Assembly: GCA_003223215.1 (NCBI GenBank)
Contig: QHYH01000079.1
Location: 62,001-126,000 of the forward strand
Source of the DNA: Acidobacteriota bacterium
GTDB taxonomy: Bacteria > Acidobacteriota > Terriglobia > Acidiferrales > UBA7541
DNA: 64,000 bases
Reading direction: 5' to 3'
Notes under the pieces: generated by a model
Told to the model about the DNA's origin: nothing
What the model saw: only the letters and a program-made list of their open reading frames with translations
The model's database searches: none
Part shown: positions 13,048-26,576 of the stretch, in pieces
How positions within the stretch are numbered: position 1 is the stretch's first letter
How the letters are laid out: every line of letters starts with the position of its first letter
Translations under genes and position numbers: made by a program

Positions 13048-15123
13048 ATGAAAAGAATGTGCCTTGGGATCGTGACGAGCTTGTTGCTGGACGGGGGGAT
13101 TTTGGCGCAGAAGCCGCCGCTCCTGCCGGAGAAAGAGGTTCGAGCGCTCGCGAACGAATTGAGCGGAGAGACGGCCAAGCGGAATCTGGAGGTGATTGCG
13201 ACCTCTCATAGGCAGCGCGGCTCGCAAGGGTTTCATGCAGCCGCGGAATTGGTGGCGGAGCGGGTGCGCGCGTATGGGCTCAGCAACGTTGAGATTTTCG
13301 AATTTCCGGCAGATGGAAAGATTTTTTATGGGACGCAGAGGTCCCGGCCGGCGTGGGACGCGGAGCTGGGCGAGCTCTCCGAGTTGCGACACCGAGGTTT
13401 GCCATCCAAAGACCGGAAGATTCCAGCTGAAGGGGAACAAACCATCAGGCTCTGCGACTACGCATCAGAACCGGTGGTGCTGGCAGAGGACAGCGAAAGC
13501 GCGGAGGTGACCGCCGATTTGGTGGACGTGGGCGAGGGAACAAAGGAGAGCGATTACGCGGGAAAAGATGTAAAGGGAAGGATTGTGCTGGTGAGCGCGC
13601 AGCCGGGAGCGGTCGAGGATTTGGCGGTGGGGAAGTTGGGTGCCGTAGGAATTGTCAGTTATGCGCAGAATCAGAAGACGGCTTGGTGGGGAGAGGACGA
13701 AAATTTGATCCGCTGGGGGCATCTGGAGACATTTTCGCCGAACAAAACGTTTGGGTTCATGGTGTCGTTGAAAACAGCGCGCGGATTACGGGAGCGGCTT
13801 CACAAGGGAGACAAGATTACGCTCGAGGCCGTGGTGAAGGCGGGCCAACATCCCGGGAATTATGAAGTGGTGACCGCGACGATTCCGGGAGCGGAAGGGA
13901 AATTCAAGGAAGAAGAGATCGCGTTCAGCTGCCACTTGGACCATCAACGGCCCGGAGCGAATGACAACGCGAGCGGCTGCGTGACGATTCTGGAAGTGGC
14001 GCGGACGCTCCAGAAGTTGATTGGCGAGGGGAAACTGGAGCGGCCGGCCCGGACGATCCGATTCATCTTTCCGCCGGAAATCGAAGGGACGCTCACGCTC
14101 CTCAATGCCAAGCCGGAATTCGCCAAGCGGACGAAAGCCGTCGTGCACATGGACATGGTAGGAGGCGGAGCCGAGACGAAAGCAGTGTTCCACGTGACAC
14201 GCGGGCCGATGAGCCTCCCGAGCTTTGCGCATGACGTGGCGTGGGCGTTCGCGGAGTGGGTCAACCAGGAGTCGTATCAATTTGCAGCCACAGGAAGGGC
14301 GGACTATCCGCTAGTGGCGCCGGAAGGGGACAAAGGGCCGCTGCGCGCGGAATATTCGGCGTACACGATGGGCAGCGACCACGATGTGTACCAGGATTCG
14401 TCGTTCAGGATTCCCGCGATTTATCTGAATGATTGGCCGGACCGCTATATTCACACGAATTTCGATTCGGCGGCGAACATCGATCCGACCAAGTTGAAAC
14501 GCGCAGCTTTCATTGGCGCGGCGAGCGGGTATTTTCTTGCAAATCTTCAAGACGCAAACGCAGAGCCTCTCAAGGAACTCAATGAACAAGGACGCTATCG
14601 TCGGGTTTCTCGGGCCCTGATTCGCAGAGAGGCTCTTCGGGATGAAAACTTGGCAAACTACACACAGTTCTGGACTCGAGAGGAACAAGCGGTGGGCGAT
14701 TCGTTGCTTGCATTCCTCTCGAGAGGAATCACCGAGGGCTTGCAGGCCTACTACGGAGTTTCTCTTATGGGCAACTCCTTAAACCCCTTGAAGGCTTTGC
14801 GTCCCATTCCAAGGGGTGAAGACTTGATTCGGTTTCAAAGGAAGACGGAGCCCAAGGGACCTCTGGCCGTGTTTGGGTATGACTATCTTGAGGATCATGC
14901 GAAAGCGGCAGGCGTGGCGACGCCGAAACTGCTGAACTATGAGGGATTGTGGGGAGGCGGCGAGGAATACGCCTATGAAGCGCTGAATTTTGCCGATGGG
15001 AAGCGGAGTGCGCAAGAAATTCGCGACGCGGTTTCGGCAGAATATGGACCGGTGCCCCTGGAATTGGTGCTCGAGTATTTGAGGGCACTCGTGAAGATTG
15101 GAGTCCTTGAACAGGTGAAATAG
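13048..15123 (+). CDS. Secreted M28-type metallopeptidase with PA-like insert and PqqD-like C terminus
   Basis: A 691-residue protein. Residues 1-20 are a signal peptide (CLGIVTSLLLDGGILAQ). A PA-like segment lies at about 150-210 (KGRIVLVSAQPGAVEDLAVG). The M28 zinc site follows: SCHLDHQRPGANDNASG (His and bridging Asp), FPPEIEG (catalytic Glu), HMDMVG (Asp) and a late RYIHTNFD (His). After the peptidase ends near residue 500 there are about 190 further residues whose last 60 (DGKRSAQEIRDAVSAEYG onwards) resemble the PqqD winged-helix fold. AGGAGA lies just ahead of the ATG. It is transcribed alone, divergent from the ABC genes. Substrate is unknown; aminopeptidase or carboxypeptidase activity is possible. 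Confidence 0.83.
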   Translation: MKRMCLGIVTSLLLDGGILAQKPPLLPEKEVRALANELSGETAKRNLEVIATSHRQRGSQGFHAAAELVAERVRAYGLSNVEIFEFPADGKIFYGTQRSRPAWDAELGELSELRHRGLPSKDRKIPAEGEQTIRLCDYASEPVVLAEDSESAEVTADLVDVGEGTKESDYAGKDVKGRIVLVSAQPGAVEDLAVGKLGAVGIVSYAQNQKTAWWGEDENLIRWGHLETFSPNKTFGFMVSLKTARGLRERLHKGDKITLEAVVKAGQHPGNYEVVTATIPGAEGKFKEEEIAFSCHLDHQRPGANDNASGCVTILEVARTLQKLIGEGKLERPARTIRFIFPPEIEGTLTLLNAKPEFAKRTKAVVHMDMVGGGAETKAVFHVTRGPMSLPSFAHDVAWAFAEWVNQESYQFAATGRADYPLVAPEGDKGPLRAEYSAYTMGSDHDVYQDSSFRIPAIYLNDWPDRYIHTNFDSAANIDPTKLKRAAFIGAASGYFLANLQDANAEPLKELNEQGRYRRVSRALIRREALRDENLANYTQFWTREEQAVGDSLLAFLSRGITEGLQAYYGVSLMGNSLNPLKALRPIPRGEDLIRFQRKTEPKGPLAVFGYDYLEDHAKAAGVATPKLLNYEGLWGGGEEYAYEALNFADGKRSAQEIRDAVSAEYGPVPLELVLEYLRALVKIGVLEQVK

Positions 15124-19942: not shown

Positions 19943-22570
19943 ATGGCTTCCGGATCGAAGAAACTCTTCCTTGTGGACGCGATGGCACACGTTTATCGGG
20001 CATTTTTTGCGCCCATGCCGCAGCGGCTGACCGGCCCCAACGGCACGCCCACGAACGTTCCTTTTCTTTTTGGAAATATTCTCAAGCGCTTGATCAAAGA
20101 CTACGATCCGAAATACATCGGCGTCGTTTTCGATCCGCCGGGGGCCACTTTTCGCGACAAGCTGTTTGAAAAATACAAGGCGCAGCGGCAGCCGATGCCG
20201 GACGACATGCGGGTGCAGATTCCTTTGGTACGCAGACTATGCGAAGCCATGCGTTTGCCGGTCCTCGAGGAGAGAGGCTACGAAGCGGATGACGTGATCG
20301 GGACCATCGCCACCGAAGCCGCCAGGCAAGGATTCGAAGTTCTCATCGTTAGCAACGACAAAGACATGATGCAACTGGTGGGCAAAAACGTCCGGACGCT
20401 CAAGACAGGTTCCGGGGGCGCAAAAGGCGACATTCTAGTCGATGAAGCAAAGGTTCAGGAGTTGCTCGGCGTGCCCGCGGAAAAAGTCGTCGACTATATG
20501 GCGCTTCTCGGCGACACCGTAGACAACATTCCCGGAGCCAAAGGCATCGGCGAGAAAGGCGCGGCGGAGCTGATCACCAAATATGGCAGCGTCGAAAAGG
20601 CGCTGGATCGCGCCGACGAGGTCGCCAACAAACGGTATCGCGAAGCTCTGCAGCAGCAGCGCGACCAGGTACTGATGTCCAAGCAGCTTGCGGCCATTTC
20701 GACCGACGTGCCCATGAAACTGGATTTCGAAGCGCTCGAGCGACGTGAACCGGACGTACCGGCGCTTGCCGCGCTCTATCGGGAGCTGGGGTTCAGCTCG
20801 CTATTGAAAGAGCTGGGGGCCGGCGCCGTCGCGGCCTCCCGACCGGCGGTATCGGAAGCGGGCGAGACCGATTATGCGCAGTTGGCAAATGCCGCGGAAT
20901 TTCGCGAGTATCTAGCAAAACTCTCCGCAAAGCAGTCGCTGGCGGTCTGGCTAAATCTGGACCAGGGTCAACGGGAATCGGAAGGATTTGGCACACGCAT
21001 CGCGGGGATTGAAGTTTCCGCAAAAGCCGGCGAGGGACGGTCGCTCTGGGCGGACGAAAAAGGCGAGGCGCTCAGTGCGCTCGCGCCGCTGCTGAAGGAT
21101 ACGAAGCGGTCCAAGATCGTCCACGACCCGAAAATCGTTTCCCTGCTGGCTGGTGAAACAAAAAACATCCAGCATGCCACCGAGCTCTATTCCTACCTGC
21201 TGCGGCCCACCACCGCGAACCACAACTTCGCCGACGTGGTCATGCGCCAGTTCAACGCCATGCTCGGCGGCGGCCCCGGAGAGCGCGCCGACTATTTGCA
21301 GCGGCTTGCGCCTCTGCTCCACGAGCAGGTGAAAGAGCGGCAGCTCGAAGGAGTCTACGAAAAGATTGACCTGCCGCTTGCGCCGGTGCTTGCGGGCATG
21401 GAACGTACCGGGATTCGCATCGAGCCTACCGAGCTGGAAAAAATGTCGGAAGCGATGGACGGGGAAGTCCGGCGACTGGAAAAGGAAATCTGGAAGCTGG
21501 CCGGCGTGGAGTTCAACGTCAATTCGCCACCGCAGCTCGCCGAGATTCTGTTTGACAAATTAAATTTGCAGGCCAATCCGAGGCGGGGGAAAGCAAAAGC
21601 ACGATCAACCGCAGCCGACGTTTTGGAGGAGCTCTCCGCACAGCATCCCTTGCCCGCAAAGGTCGTCGAATTCCGAGAAGTCTCCAAACTGAAATCTACC
21701 TATGTGGACGCGCTGCCCAAGCTCATCCATCCGGAGACCGGACGGCTGCACACCAGTTTTTCACAAACCGGCGCGGTAACCGGGCGGCTGAGCTCGAGCG
21801 ATCCCAACCTGCAAAACATTCCGATTCGCACCGAGCTTGGCCGGCAGATTCGGGCGGCGTTTGTCGCAGAAAAAGGCAACGTCCTGCTTTCCGCGGATTA
21901 CTCGCAAATCGAGCTGCGTGTGATGGCGCATTTCTCGAAGGATCCCGTACTGGTGGAGGCGTTTCGCAACGGCGAGGACATTCACGCGCGCACCGCGCAG
22001 GAAGTCTTCGGGGTGGGCCCGCTCGGGCAGACTGCGGAGCATCGCCGCGCCGCCAAGGCCATCAACTTTGGAATTATTTACGGACTTTCCCCTTTCGGTC
22101 TCGCGCAGCAACTGGGCATCGAACAGAAAGAAGCGGCGCAGTTCATCAATGCCTATTTCGCGCGGTATCGCGGCGTGAAGGAATACTTGGACAACGTTCT
22201 CGCCGAAACCCGCAAGACAGGAGTGGCCAAGACAATGTTCGGAAGAATCCGGCCGATTCCCGAGATTACTTCGCCACAGGTGCAACTGCGCAACTTTGCC
22301 GAACGCACCGCGCTGAATTCCCCGCTGCAGGGCACGGCCGCCGACCTTATTAAGCTGGCGATGATCAACATCGACCGGCGGCTCACCGAAGAGGAATTCG
22401 AGGCACAAATGATTTTGCAGGTGCATGACGAACTGCTTTTCGAATCACCCGCGAAGGAATCTGCCAGGCTGCGGAAGCTGGTGAAAGAAGAGATGGAAGG
22501 CGTCCACCAATTGGCGGTCCCGATCGTCGTGGAAATTGGCGTGGGCCCCAACTGGCGCGATCTGGATTAA
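19943..22570 (+). CDS. polA: DNA polymerase I
   Basis: An 875-residue replication and repair polymerase. Residues 1-290 are the 5' nuclease domain (LFLVDAMAHVYRAF, YEADDVIGTIA, SNDKDMMQL, GDTVDNIPGAKGIG). About 300-480 is the 3'-5' exonuclease fold, but the acidic DxE motif expected near AVWLNLDQG, and the later Asp positions, are missing, so proofreading is probably lost. The polymerase domain is complete: motif A DYSQIELRVMAHFS, motif B RRAAKAINFGIIYG and motif C QVHDELLFE. The ATG at 19943 gives the normal N terminus; a TTG at 19895 only adds a non-conserved extension. TATACT at 19930-19935 sits just ahead of the start and could be the -10 element of a nearly leaderless message. Confidence 0.95.
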   Translation: MASGSKKLFLVDAMAHVYRAFFAPMPQRLTGPNGTPTNVPFLFGNILKRLIKDYDPKYIGVVFDPPGATFRDKLFEKYKAQRQPMPDDMRVQIPLVRRLCEAMRLPVLEERGYEADDVIGTIATEAARQGFEVLIVSNDKDMMQLVGKNVRTLKTGSGGAKGDILVDEAKVQELLGVPAEKVVDYMALLGDTVDNIPGAKGIGEKGAAELITKYGSVEKALDRADEVANKRYREALQQQRDQVLMSKQLAAISTDVPMKLDFEALERREPDVPALAALYRELGFSSLLKELGAGAVAASRPAVSEAGETDYAQLANAAEFREYLAKLSAKQSLAVWLNLDQGQRESEGFGTRIAGIEVSAKAGEGRSLWADEKGEALSALAPLLKDTKRSKIVHDPKIVSLLAGETKNIQHATELYSYLLRPTTANHNFADVVMRQFNAMLGGGPGERADYLQRLAPLLHEQVKERQLEGVYEKIDLPLAPVLAGMERTGIRIEPTELEKMSEAMDGEVRRLEKEIWKLAGVEFNVNSPPQLAEILFDKLNLQANPRRGKAKARSTAADVLEELSAQHPLPAKVVEFREVSKLKSTYVDALPKLIHPETGRLHTSFSQTGAVTGRLSSSDPNLQNIPIRTELGRQIRAAFVAEKGNVLLSADYSQIELRVMAHFSKDPVLVEAFRNGEDIHARTAQEVFGVGPLGQTAEHRRAAKAINFGIIYGLSPFGLAQQLGIEQKEAAQFINAYFARYRGVKEYLDNVLAETRKTGVAKTMFGRIRPIPEITSPQVQLRNFAERTALNSPLQGTAADLIKLAMINIDRRLTEEEFEAQMILQVHDELLFESPAKESARLRKLVKEEMEGVHQLAVPIVVEIGVGPNWRDLD

Positions 22571-22814
22571 CTTCGACCCGCACTCCGATTGGCCCGATTT
22601 GTGCCCCCGGCGTGGCTTGGGCGTTGGGGTCTTTTACGGATAGCGCACGTCCGGCCAGTTGTGCCTAAATCTCCTTGGACGTCTTGATTCTTGTCTTGGT
22701 TCGCCAAGTCTAACGGGAAGTCTAACTGGGAACATGGCCCTCGGTCCCTCGAAATTTAACTGATTTCTCTACTGCTAAGAGAACGTTCCCCCCCAGTCCA
22801 CAGCGAGGTTGCTC

Positions 22815-23933
22815 ATGCGCCGTACGTTGCTCTTGTTTCCTGCTTGCGGTCTATTTCTTTGCCTGACGGGATGCGGCACGACTACCCAAATCGTCCGGCC
22901 AATCACGGTGGCGAAGTCCGGCCGCACCACGGGTTTGACCTGTTCGACGGTCGACGCCATGAACCGTGCCACGTCAGTTGCTTATACGACGAATTGTGAT
23001 GGAACGGGGACGCAGTTCACGGTGAACTACACGAATCAGGTGAGTGTGGTGGGCGGGGATTTTTCAAGCGCAGGAGATTCCGGCTCGCTGATCGTGACAC
23101 AGAATAATGCCAACCCGCTTGCGTTGCTCTACGCGGATTCGAGCACGGACACCGTTGGCAACCCCGTCTCGGATGTGCTGAGCTTCTTCGCTTTCCACGG
23201 CCATCCCGTCAACTTCGCTGGCGCCGCGCGCACTGCTCCCGTCATTGGTTGCACTTTGCCTGGGCCGCAAGCGGCGATGGCGGCGCGGCTGGCGGTCCAA
23301 AGGGTTACGCCGTCCGCGACGGCGCTGGCTCCGGCCACGGCGGTGAGGGATAAGCATGCCGCGGAGCTCCTCGCCTATCCCGAAGTGCAGGCGGTCGGGC
23401 TTGGCGCAAGCTATGACAATCCGTCCGAGGCGGCCATCTTGCTCTTCGTGATGAAGGGACAGTCGAGATCGAACTTGCCCCCCGAGGTCGCAGGAGTGCC
23501 CACACGCATCATCGAGGCGGAGCAGTTCCCGCAACACGGACTCCTTTCCCAGGAAGAGAGTGCTGCGCTCGAACAGTCCGCGCCGCCGCCGCAGCTTGTT
23601 TATCCTATTTCGGATTTGGAAGTCGCCCGCGCGAAAGTGGCGCATGCGGCGCACGTAGATGAATGGATGAAAATGAGCGGAGTCCAGGGCGTGGGCATCA
23701 CCTCAAGTATCGACTCCCCCGGGGAGGCGGCGCTCATAATCTTTCTCATCCAGGGGGTGCCGCATCCGGCGATCCCGCCGGTCATCGACCGATTGCGCAC
23801 GCGCGTCCGCGAATCGACGCGCTTCCGCGCGGGTCTTGATGGCTCAGGGCGAAACCGCGCGTGTTCCGTGTCAGACGGAACGAGAAAAGCGCTTTTGCGC
23901 GCGCAGCCGAATCATACAACTGCGAATCATTGA
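22815..23933 (+). CDS. Lipoprotein with half a trypsin-like domain and two copies of a C-terminal domain
   Basis: A 372-residue predicted lipoprotein (lipobox LTGC, Cys20). Residues 30-150 match the second half of the trypsin-like domain of the next gene, including SAGDSGSL (Ser89) and GNPVSDVLSFF, but the half with catalytic His and Asp is absent, so proteolysis is unlikely. Residues 180-235 (LLAYPEVQAVGLG, EAAILLFVMKG) and 280-335 (MKMSGVQGVGITSS, EAALIIFLIQG) are two copies of one domain, resembling the small domain in bacterial NAL1-like putative peptidases. GAGG lies six bases before the ATG at 22815. The paralogue at 24101 follows in the same direction; the two probably arose by tandem duplication with loss of the front half here. 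Confidence 0.75.
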   Translation: MRRTLLLFPACGLFLCLTGCGTTTQIVRPITVAKSGRTTGLTCSTVDAMNRATSVAYTTNCDGTGTQFTVNYTNQVSVVGGDFSSAGDSGSLIVTQNNANPLALLYADSSTDTVGNPVSDVLSFFAFHGHPVNFAGAARTAPVIGCTLPGPQAAMAARLAVQRVTPSATALAPATAVRDKHAAELLAYPEVQAVGLGASYDNPSEAAILLFVMKGQSRSNLPPEVAGVPTRIIEAEQFPQHGLLSQEESAALEQSAPPPQLVYPISDLEVARAKVAHAAHVDEWMKMSGVQGVGITSSIDSPGEAALIIFLIQGVPHPAIPPVIDRLRTRVRESTRFRAGLDGSGRNRACSVSDGTRKALLRAQPNHTTANH

Positions 23934-24100
23934 TTCCGGCATCGCGCTCCATGACGTCCAAGAGTCATTCGACCGCAAAGCGGCCGCTTGCTCGGGAGGC
24001 CGCGGTGCACGTCGCTTTTTCAATACGTGCGCAGGGAAACTCGTACCGTTTGAAAATACCTGTGCTAGCGTGGACACTCAGACCCTTTAACGGGGTTCCC

Positions 24101-25912
24101 ATGCGCTCTCGTGTTTTCTTGATCTTCGGGCTTCTTGCTTCGGTGTTCCTCGGCTCTTGCGGAGGGGCCAGCGCCCCGCCGCCTCCGCCGGTCTCGGTAA
24201 CCGTAACTCCGAACCCGATAAGCGTAGCCATCTTCACAACCCAGCAGTTTACGGCTACCGTGAATGGACAATCGAGCACCGCGGTGACATGGGAGGTCAA
24301 TGGTGTCACCGGCGGGAGCCAGGCCACGGGCTTTATCTCCACGTCCGGCCTCTTTGTTGCGCCTAGCGGTGTTCCCACGACTTCGAGCGGAAACGGCAAG
24401 GTGACCACCACGCCCGTGACGGTCAGCGCCGTTTCCACGGCAAATCCAAACTCTTCCGGATCGGCGACCGTCACCATCTTCCCGCCGAATCAAAATCCGC
24501 AGGGGGGTGTAATCAAGCTCGGGAGCTCCGGCGGGAATCAGAATGATTCAAGCACAAGCGGGAACCTCATTACTTGCTGCGGAGGCACGCTCGGCTCACT
24601 GGTGACGCGGGGCGGCACGCAATACATCCTGAGCGACAATCACGTGCTTGCGCGCACCGATCTTGCTGCTATTGGTGAGTCCATCATCCAGCCGGCACTT
24701 GTCGATACCAGCTGCGGACAAGGAGTCTTCGCGACCGTCGGGCAGCTTTCTCAGTTTTACAACCTGGAAATGGGGACGGCTCCCAAGATCGACGCGGCCA
24801 TCGCACAGGCGGTCACCGGAGCCGTGGACCCAAGCGGAAACATTCTCTTCCTCGGGGCCACGACAGATGCCAACAACGTTCCGCTGCCGGCAGCTCCGCA
24901 TGCCGGTTCCGGTGTCGCCGCTTCGCTCAGCATGGCCGTGACGAAGAGTGGCCGCTCGACAGGCCTCACGTGTTCCACGGTTCTGTCAACAAACGCGACG
25001 GCCTCGGTCCAGTATCAAAAAGGCTGCGGAACGGGAACGATGTTCAGCGAAACTTTTACCAATCAGGTGGACGTTGCCGGCGGCAGCTTCAGCGCTGCAG
25101 GGGATTCCGGATCGCTCATCGTTACGCAAAACACAGCCGATCCGGTGGCGCTGGTCTTCGCTGGTTCCGACGCCGATACCGTGGGCAATCCCGTGTCGGA
25201 CGTGCTGAATTTCTTCCAGAGTGGCGGCAACAGCGTCACGTTTGTAGGTGGTGCGACACATCAAGTCATTGGATGCACTCTGCCGGTTAAGCCTGCTTCG
25301 GCGACTTTAACGGTGCCGAGTTCGACGGCCTCAGCCGGAGGGCTACAAAAGGCCGTTGCCGCGCGTGATGCGCACGCCCGGGAACTCCTCGCCTACCCGG
25401 AAGTGCAGGCTGTCGGCGTGGGAGTGAGCTACGACAACCCGGCTGAGCCAGCGATTCTGCTTTTCGTAAACAAAGGGCAACCGCCGAGGAACCTCCCGGC
25501 GGCTGTCGATCGCATCCGCACACGCATGGTCGAAGGCGAACCTTTTTCCGAGCGCGGCGTTTTGTCGCCCGAGGAAAGCGCCACCCTAGAGCAATCCGCG
25601 GCGCTCCCGCAGCTTGTCTATTCCATCTCGGAGGCAGAGGTTTCGCGCGCCAAGATCGTGCATGAAGCGCACGTCGATGAACTGATGAAGATGGATGGCG
25701 TGCAGGGAGTGGGAATTACCTCAAGCGTGGATTCGCCCGGCGAGGCGGCGCTGATGATTTTCCTCATCCGTGGGGTGGCGCATCCAGCGATCCCGCCGGT
25801 CATCGACGGATTGCGCACACGCGTCCGCGAATCCACGCGCTTCCGTGCGGGTTTTGGCGACTCCCAGCCAAAGCGCGGTTGTTCCCTGCCAAGCCCAGGG
25901 AAAAAACCCTAA
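24101..25912 (+). CDS. Trypsin-like serine peptidase lipoprotein with Ig-like and duplicated C-terminal domains
   Basis: A 603-residue predicted lipoprotein (lipobox LGSC, Cys20). A proline run is followed by a bacterial Ig-like domain at about 30-127 (VTPNPISVAIFTTQQFTATV). The trypsin-like domain spans about 135-395 with a full apparent triad: His181 in ILSDNHVLA, Asp231 in APKIDAAIAQ and Ser336 in SAAGDSGSL. Two related domains follow at about 420-480 (YPEVQAVGVGVSYDNP) and 520-580 (MDGVQGVGITSSVDSP). The arrangement resembles bacterial NAL1-like putative peptidases. I chose the ATG at 24101 because it begins the signal peptide; the frame is open upstream to 23861, inside the previous gene. 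It is the complete paralogue of the gene at 22815. Substrate is unknown. Confidence 0.78.
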   Translation: MRSRVFLIFGLLASVFLGSCGGASAPPPPPVSVTVTPNPISVAIFTTQQFTATVNGQSSTAVTWEVNGVTGGSQATGFISTSGLFVAPSGVPTTSSGNGKVTTTPVTVSAVSTANPNSSGSATVTIFPPNQNPQGGVIKLGSSGGNQNDSSTSGNLITCCGGTLGSLVTRGGTQYILSDNHVLARTDLAAIGESIIQPALVDTSCGQGVFATVGQLSQFYNLEMGTAPKIDAAIAQAVTGAVDPSGNILFLGATTDANNVPLPAAPHAGSGVAASLSMAVTKSGRSTGLTCSTVLSTNATASVQYQKGCGTGTMFSETFTNQVDVAGGSFSAAGDSGSLIVTQNTADPVALVFAGSDADTVGNPVSDVLNFFQSGGNSVTFVGGATHQVIGCTLPVKPASATLTVPSSTASAGGLQKAVAARDAHARELLAYPEVQAVGVGVSYDNPAEPAILLFVNKGQPPRNLPAAVDRIRTRMVEGEPFSERGVLSPEESATLEQSAALPQLVYSISEAEVSRAKIVHEAHVDELMKMDGVQGVGITSSVDSPGEAALMIFLIRGVAHPAIPPVIDGLRTRVRESTRFRAGFGDSQPKRGCSLPSPGKKP

Positions 25913-26102
25913 AAACAGCCTGGCAAAGTCGCAACCAGTTAGCCGGGTAAAACCGGAGGTCAGCCCCAACCACCCCGTTTGCGCTCTTAACTTGACTGAC
26001 TTAACTTAAACCCTTTCCTTCCACATCGTGTGGGCGTAGAATTCGCTCAAAATCAAGCCGAGTGCGCTCCTTCGGCGGTGCTCGACCTGTCGGGAGGATG
26101 CT

Positions 26103-26576
26103 ATGCGTCGGACGATCTTCATTGCGAGTGCAGTGCTGCTCTGTGGAATTCTCTGCCCCAAGCCAAATTTCACTCAGGAAAAAACGGGCTCCTCGGAACC
26201 CAAGATGACGCCCGAGGATGCCGCAAAGAAAAACCCCATTACGCCCTCGCCAGAAGGACTGGCGGAAGCACGCAAGCAGTACGGGTATGACTGTGCCATG
26301 TGCCACGGCAAGGATGGAGGCGGTAAAGGCGACCTTGCCCAGGATATGAAACTGGAGCTTCATGACTGGCGTGATCCCTCGACGATTGAAAAGATGACGG
26401 ACGGCGAGCTCTTCTGGGTCATCAGCTACGGCAGGGGGAAAATGGTGGGAGGGGAAGCTGACCGGTCACCTGAAAAGATGCGCTGGAAACTCGTGAATCT
26501 GGTGCGCTCCTTTGGAAAGAAGGGCGCGGGGACGGCGGCAGCCGCGGACAAGCCCAAGACCGAGCCCCAACCTTAA
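26103..26576 (+). CDS. Secreted mono-haem cytochrome c
   Basis: A 157-residue protein with a signal peptide (IFIASAVLLCGILC) and one haem site CAMCH at about residues 64-68, followed by GKDGGGKGDLA as in small class I cytochromes. The distal Met is probably in YGRGKMVGGEAD near residue 110. GGGAGGATGCT ahead of the ATG serves as ribosome binding site. A cytochrome c located about 1.2 kb in front of the ACIII/oxidase operon could be its soluble electron carrier; this is inference from position. CTTAACTT occurs twice at 25986-25993 and 26000-26007 in the upstream region. Confidence 0.87.
   Translation: MRRTIFIASAVLLCGILCPKPNFTQEKTGSSEPKMTPEDAAKKNPITPSPEGLAEARKQYGYDCAMCHGKDGGGKGDLAQDMKLELHDWRDPSTIEKMTDGELFWVISYGRGKMVGGEADRSPEKMRWKLVNLVRSFGKKGAGTAAAADKPKTEPQP

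Follow-up and report, generated by a model that had tools for sequence, protein, structure and literature searches.

A truncated serine protease lipoprotein derived by in-frame deletion beside an intact NAL1-like paralogue in an Acidobacteriota genome

Results

Genes at the locus

The window (the whole stretch of 64 000 nucleotides that was analysed, from an Acidobacteriota genome assembled as a draft of 279 contigs) contains two adjacent genes, here called P1 and P2, in a slot flanked by polA on one side and a cytochrome c/rhodanese pair on the other (Table 1). The family to which they belong occupies this slot in most members of the genus, as one or two copies of a lipoprotein protease, and it is common across the class, with an N-terminal stalk of varied length. 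P1 and P2 are its sole members in the source genome; other matches there were to the Ig-like domains of unrelated proteins. The close relatives of this genome include the gp2 MAGs AA90, AA91 and AA92. An Rfam scan of 22400-26200 gave no match, and no NCBIfam model scored above its cut-off. An M28-family peptidase of 691 aa is also encoded in the window (13048-15123).

Table 1. Coordinates of the features at the polA–cytochrome c slot, numbered from the first base of the window
Feature	Position	Strand	Evidence or remark
polA, conserved upstream flank of the slot	19943..22570	+	
P1, half copy, 372 aa: lipoprotein, Ser half-barrel, two small domains	22815..23933	+	ORF (start codon ATG 22815), alignment, profile, AF2
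P1 signal peptide and lipobox LTGC, Cys20 (residues 17-20)	22815..22874	+	homologous to leader of 1011-aa copy A
P1 second protease barrel, residues 30-150	22902..23264	+	alignment, AF2, structure match; Ser89 codon 23079-23081
P1 deletion join, microhomology TCRCGGTRRCG	22903..22913	+	about 1.9 kb (about 637 codons) absent relative to L036/L037
P1 small domain, copy 1	23331..23528	+	profile
P1 small domain, copy 2	23625..23831	+	profile
P2, complete lipoprotein protease, 603 aa	24101..25912	+	ORF (start codon ATG 24101), AF2 model
P2 signal peptide and lipobox LGSC, Cys20 (residues 17-20)	24101..24160	+	motif comparison with relatives
P2 Ig-like stalk domain, residues 31-127	24191..24481	+	weak Big_2 match, AF2 beta-sandwich
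P2 S1-fold protease domain, residues 137-385	24509..25255	+	profile, structure match, alignment
P2 triad codon, His181	24641-24643	+	
P2 triad codon, Asp231	24791-24793	+	
P2 triad codon, Ser336	25106-25108	+	
P2 small domain, copy 1	25346..25549	+	profile
P2 small domain, copy 2	25646..25849	+	profile
Cytochrome c protein, conserved downstream flank, followed by rhodanese	26103..26576	+	

The complete protease and the half copy

P2 has the triad order His-Asp-Ser and the two-barrel fold of S1-type proteases, and its His181, Asp231 and Ser336 are conserved without exception in the 50 full-length relatives that were aligned. The AF2 model (pLDDT 88.8, pTM 0.87, from a 50-sequence alignment) lays out an Ig-like domain at residues 32-127, a two-barrel protease at about residues 137-385 and helix-plus-three-strand domains at 412-479 and 511-578. 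The protease part of the model (residues 138-382) matches PDB 2sfa with Z 21.2 and an rmsd of 2.0 over 185 residues. The Ig-like domain is a beta-sandwich in the model and gives a weak match to Big_2. In both P1 and P2 the lipobox Cys closes the signal peptide, from which motif lipidation is predicted; lipobox-like motifs are also found in most relatives. P2 is most likely a working endopeptidase, anchored outside the cytoplasm.

Residues 30-358 of P1 align with residues 278-602 of P2 at 64 % identity (E 1e-137). P1 retains GDSG (Ser89), and its start lies beyond the part that would hold the His/Asp half; the triad is incomplete and one barrel is missing, leaving the Ser half only. As judged from its sequence, P1 is a derivative of the protease family and not an active member, and cannot carry out proteolysis on its own. 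AF2 folded residues 31-335 with confidence; over residues 31-150 the ten-residue means were 74-95, mostly above 87, with strands as in P2, and the structure match of this half-barrel was to the second barrel only (Z 7-8). The rows of the alignment used for P1 are complete proteins, and the model therefore shows the fold that is encoded rather than its stability without the first barrel. If made, P1 would be a lipid-anchored protein in which both small domains are intact and the half-barrel is exposed.

The small domain and its kinship to NAL1

P1 and P2 each carry two small domains of about 65 residues, with profile E values of 1e-24 to 1e-28 per copy, and these four are the only copies in the source genome. 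Pfam holds no model specific to this domain, and searches with the domain alone against PDB sequences gave chance-level matches or none. Pro_Al_protease (PF02983) was tried as a candidate and rejected, as it was unmatched in P1, P2 and their small domains; in 149 genomes it gave one weak match, in a protein without this protease.

Resemblance to NAL1 is seen in both parts of the protein. By sequence profile the best solved relatives of the protease are the NAL1 chains (E 1e-6), the AF2 protease of P2 matches rice NAL1 with Z 17.7, and Nal1_C is matched by 41 of the 50 family members at E 0.1 or better; P2 alone scores 17.7 bits against the NAL1-family Pfam model, under its cut-off of 26.1. In a profile comparison with three NAL1_N-type domains, taken from NAL1-like proteases of bacteria, the small domain scores hhalign 91.5 % (A3 versus A5). 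A higher value (98 %, A4 versus A5) was left out because one sequence was present on both sides, the A3 comparison being clean. At the level of sequence profiles, the small domain of P1 and P2 is a remote relative of NAL1_N, and the protease is probably related to NAL1. To our knowledge, the role of the NAL1_N domain is not settled.

Much of the original prediction agrees with these results: tandem lipoproteins, one a full trypsin-like protease with a His181-Asp231-Ser336 triad and an Ig-like domain, the other beginning behind its lipobox past the His/Asp half and keeping GDSG, both with a duplicated small domain that resembles one in NAL1-like proteins. The doubled C-terminal placement, which it had presented as a departure, is indeed present but is the rule in the class (46 of 50 family members). 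It had also raised the possibility that structure prediction would show residues 30-150 of P1 to be unable to fold; AF2 instead gave residues 31-150 a confident half-barrel.

Arrangements of the domain vary more widely. Other Acidobacteriota NAL1-like proteases have a single small domain, N-terminal at two of the loci compared and C-terminal at three. Four proteins (L079, L080, L081 and L083) have one small domain with a NAL1-like protease, compared with two in P1 and P2; the first three, from G093, G028 and G032, are short forms of 389-401 aa without an Ig stalk, and those of G028 and G032 are additional copies located away from the polA slot.

In addition, a search of the phylum identified nine ORFs of fewer than 160 codons consisting of the small domain only, spread over eight genomes from other families of the Acidobacteriota. 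Each of the nine (73-88 aa) is the immediate neighbour, on one side or the other, of a NAL1-like protease gene. Two of them weakly match NAL1_N, and by inspection none has an obvious leader. It is possible that these free-standing proteins act as inhibitor, chaperone or subunit of the neighbouring protease.

Origin of the half copy

Two complete copies are present in the slots of AA91 (L036) and AA92 (L037), in the order polA, copy A (1011 aa), copy B (697-698 aa), cytochrome c. Residues 1-35 of P1 share 74-80 % identity with the beginning of copy A in these genomes, and residues 30-350 share 72 % protein identity with its second half. The homology extends into about 190 bp of DNA upstream of P1, with 75 % DNA identity over the block. 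The leader, start and upstream DNA of P1 are thus those of the start of copy A, and the remainder is the second half of A; P1 is therefore copy A minus about 1.9 kb. The join in P1 (ATCACGGTGGCGAAGTC) combines a 5′ side (ATCACGGTGACG) with a 3′ side (CTCGCGGTAGCGAAGTC), and the loss is in frame. Trees of the shared half place P1 in clade A, with G024, G030A, G018A and G012, and P2 in clade B. Since the full triad is present in all 50 aligned relatives, all of which are full-length, the short state of P1 is derived. The stalk of copy A (L036:4861-7896 and L037:4861-7896) contains several Ig-like repeats; that of P2 has one.

No second half copy was found in 36 genomes of the genus or in 399 of the class, the latter being a sample in which extra copies per genome are possibly under-represented; likewise, in the same genomes, there was no second case of a protease and a pseudoprotease recurring as neighbours. 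The candidates for a wider half-copy family proved to be a split copy (G029) or to lie at contig ends (G367) and were rejected. In G029 (L031:1456-3266) the only full-length copy is broken by a stop into two frames, due to turnover or to sequencing error. In the slot of G001 (L065:1498-1700) the last small domain survives as a remnant of about 65 residues, shortly behind polA, and in that of G018/AA92 (L037:10361-10699) a remnant of the same domain lies in a 113-codon stretch without a leader; the two show repeated loss by deletion in the polA–cytochrome c slot. P1 differs from these remnants in retaining a start, a leader and an open frame.

Selection on the half copy

Signs of decay were sought in P1 and none were found, the ORF, start and lipobox being intact and one of 30 near-invariant half-barrel residues being changed. 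In a codon model, omega was 0.133 (about 0.08-0.21) on the P1 branch, compared with 0.104 elsewhere (2 delta lnL 0.96); neutrality on the branch was disfavoured (2 delta lnL 54). For the half-barrel alone the values were 0.13 and 0.08, a difference that was not significant. Synonymous sites on this branch are near saturation, making all of these omega values rough. Supposing that P1 was useless from the deletion onward, a neutral phase of more than about 7 % of the branch is disfavoured. The absence of decay points either to a recent deletion or to continuing constraint on P1, the branch also covering the time that preceded the deletion.

Discussion

P1 and P2 are very probably an internally deleted and an intact copy of the same predicted surface protease, with P1 a side product of turnover at the slot and not a purpose-made decoy. 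The ancestral slot would have held tandem copies of a protein with an Ig-like stalk, a NAL1-like S1 protease and two C-terminal small domains. The upstream, clade A copy would then have lost about 1.9 kb in frame, by a deletion between short microhomologies. Its front two-thirds, with the Ig stalk and the His- and Asp-bearing first barrel, would thereby have been removed and the original leader fused straight to the second barrel. The resulting P1 may be recent, or may have been kept for binding by its small domains. Most likely, it has no dedicated function.

Two other accounts of the short form concern its history. Were it an assembly error, the genome would truly have two full-length proteases, as close relatives do; the sequence is from a draft, and the long, similar Ig repeats of the upstream copy are of a kind that assembles poorly. 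However, the join lies within a 214-kb contig, away from any long repeat, at a microhomology of about 11 bases; it preserves the frame, and the missing part did not turn up in the rest of the assembly, so that this account is improbable. That P1 is instead an older, minimal form from which the full protease was built later has in its favour its shorter length only, and its probability is negligible: its leader and the DNA in front of it are those of the long upstream copy, every sampled family member across the class has the triad, and the idea is refuted by the position of P1 within clade A, surrounded by copies of full length.

The original prediction had proposed that the truncated form is a decoy, inhibitor or binding partner of the full protease. 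In such a case P1 would be maintained to act in trans, its small domains, alone or together with the half-barrel, binding P2 or its substrate so as to inhibit, chaperone or tether. The retained leader and ORF, the purifying selection averaged over the branch and the confident fold of residues 31-335 are consistent with this, as are the nine loci, in eight genomes, at which small-domain genes stand free beside NAL1-like proteases. The separate existence of the domain beside proteases in other lineages makes a trans-acting role for P1 possible, though unlikely. P2 already has two small domains in cis, the free-standing neighbours are single domains without a half-barrel or lipobox, and the selection measured covers an unknown time before the deletion. 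Half and full copies occur together nowhere else searched, so that the survey of such neighbours that had been suggested found no recurrence, and the relatives point to internal deletion; the proposed role is therefore unsupported. Within the sample the half copy is, as had been considered, unique to this genome, but the decay that was to accompany this is absent. It is likewise doubtful that P1 is kept as a lipid-anchored, catalytically dead regulator acting on P2 in trans via its NAL1_N-like domains, as a fused counterpart of the free-standing proteins.

With origin by deletion as the preferred reading, intact relatives at the same locus show how a half-protease lipoprotein can arise in a single in-frame step with the frame left open, and P1 is a caution against taking truncated paralogues for decoys. 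Of greater importance than the origin of P1 is the mobility, around one protease, of the domain that in plants goes by the name NAL1_N; it is found N-terminal, C-terminal and single, C-terminal and double, or as a separate neighbour. The free-standing versions open its role to simple tests by mixing.

Comparison with known systems

P2 shares the two-barrel fold (Z 20-21, rmsd about 2), the His-Asp-Ser order and the GDSG motif with secreted S1 proteases such as alpha-lytic protease and those of Streptomyces (PDB 2sfa, 1hpg and 2alp). Unlike them, it is predicted to be lipid-anchored, has an Ig-like stalk and two C-terminal small domains, and has no detected Pro_Al_protease domain. As to NAL1 and the NAL1-like peptidases (NAL1_N, PF25608; Nal1_C, PF25819), the match of P2 to NAL1 chains covers its region of KSGRTTGLT and GDSGSL. 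In NAL1 proper the NAL1_N domain is at the N terminus, where P1 and P2 have none; it is single and N-terminal, as its Pfam name and two of the loci compared (L138 and L139) indicate, whereas the counterpart in P1 and P2 is doubled and C-terminal. The free-standing small-domain proteins differ from P1 in having one domain, no protease half and no lipobox. Among 966 prokaryotic serine proteases, 42 lack catalytic residues or have substitutions there (PMC2605481). P1 would be another such case, differing from those surveyed (PMC2605481) in that a whole barrel is gone, through a deletion that is traceable at the locus.
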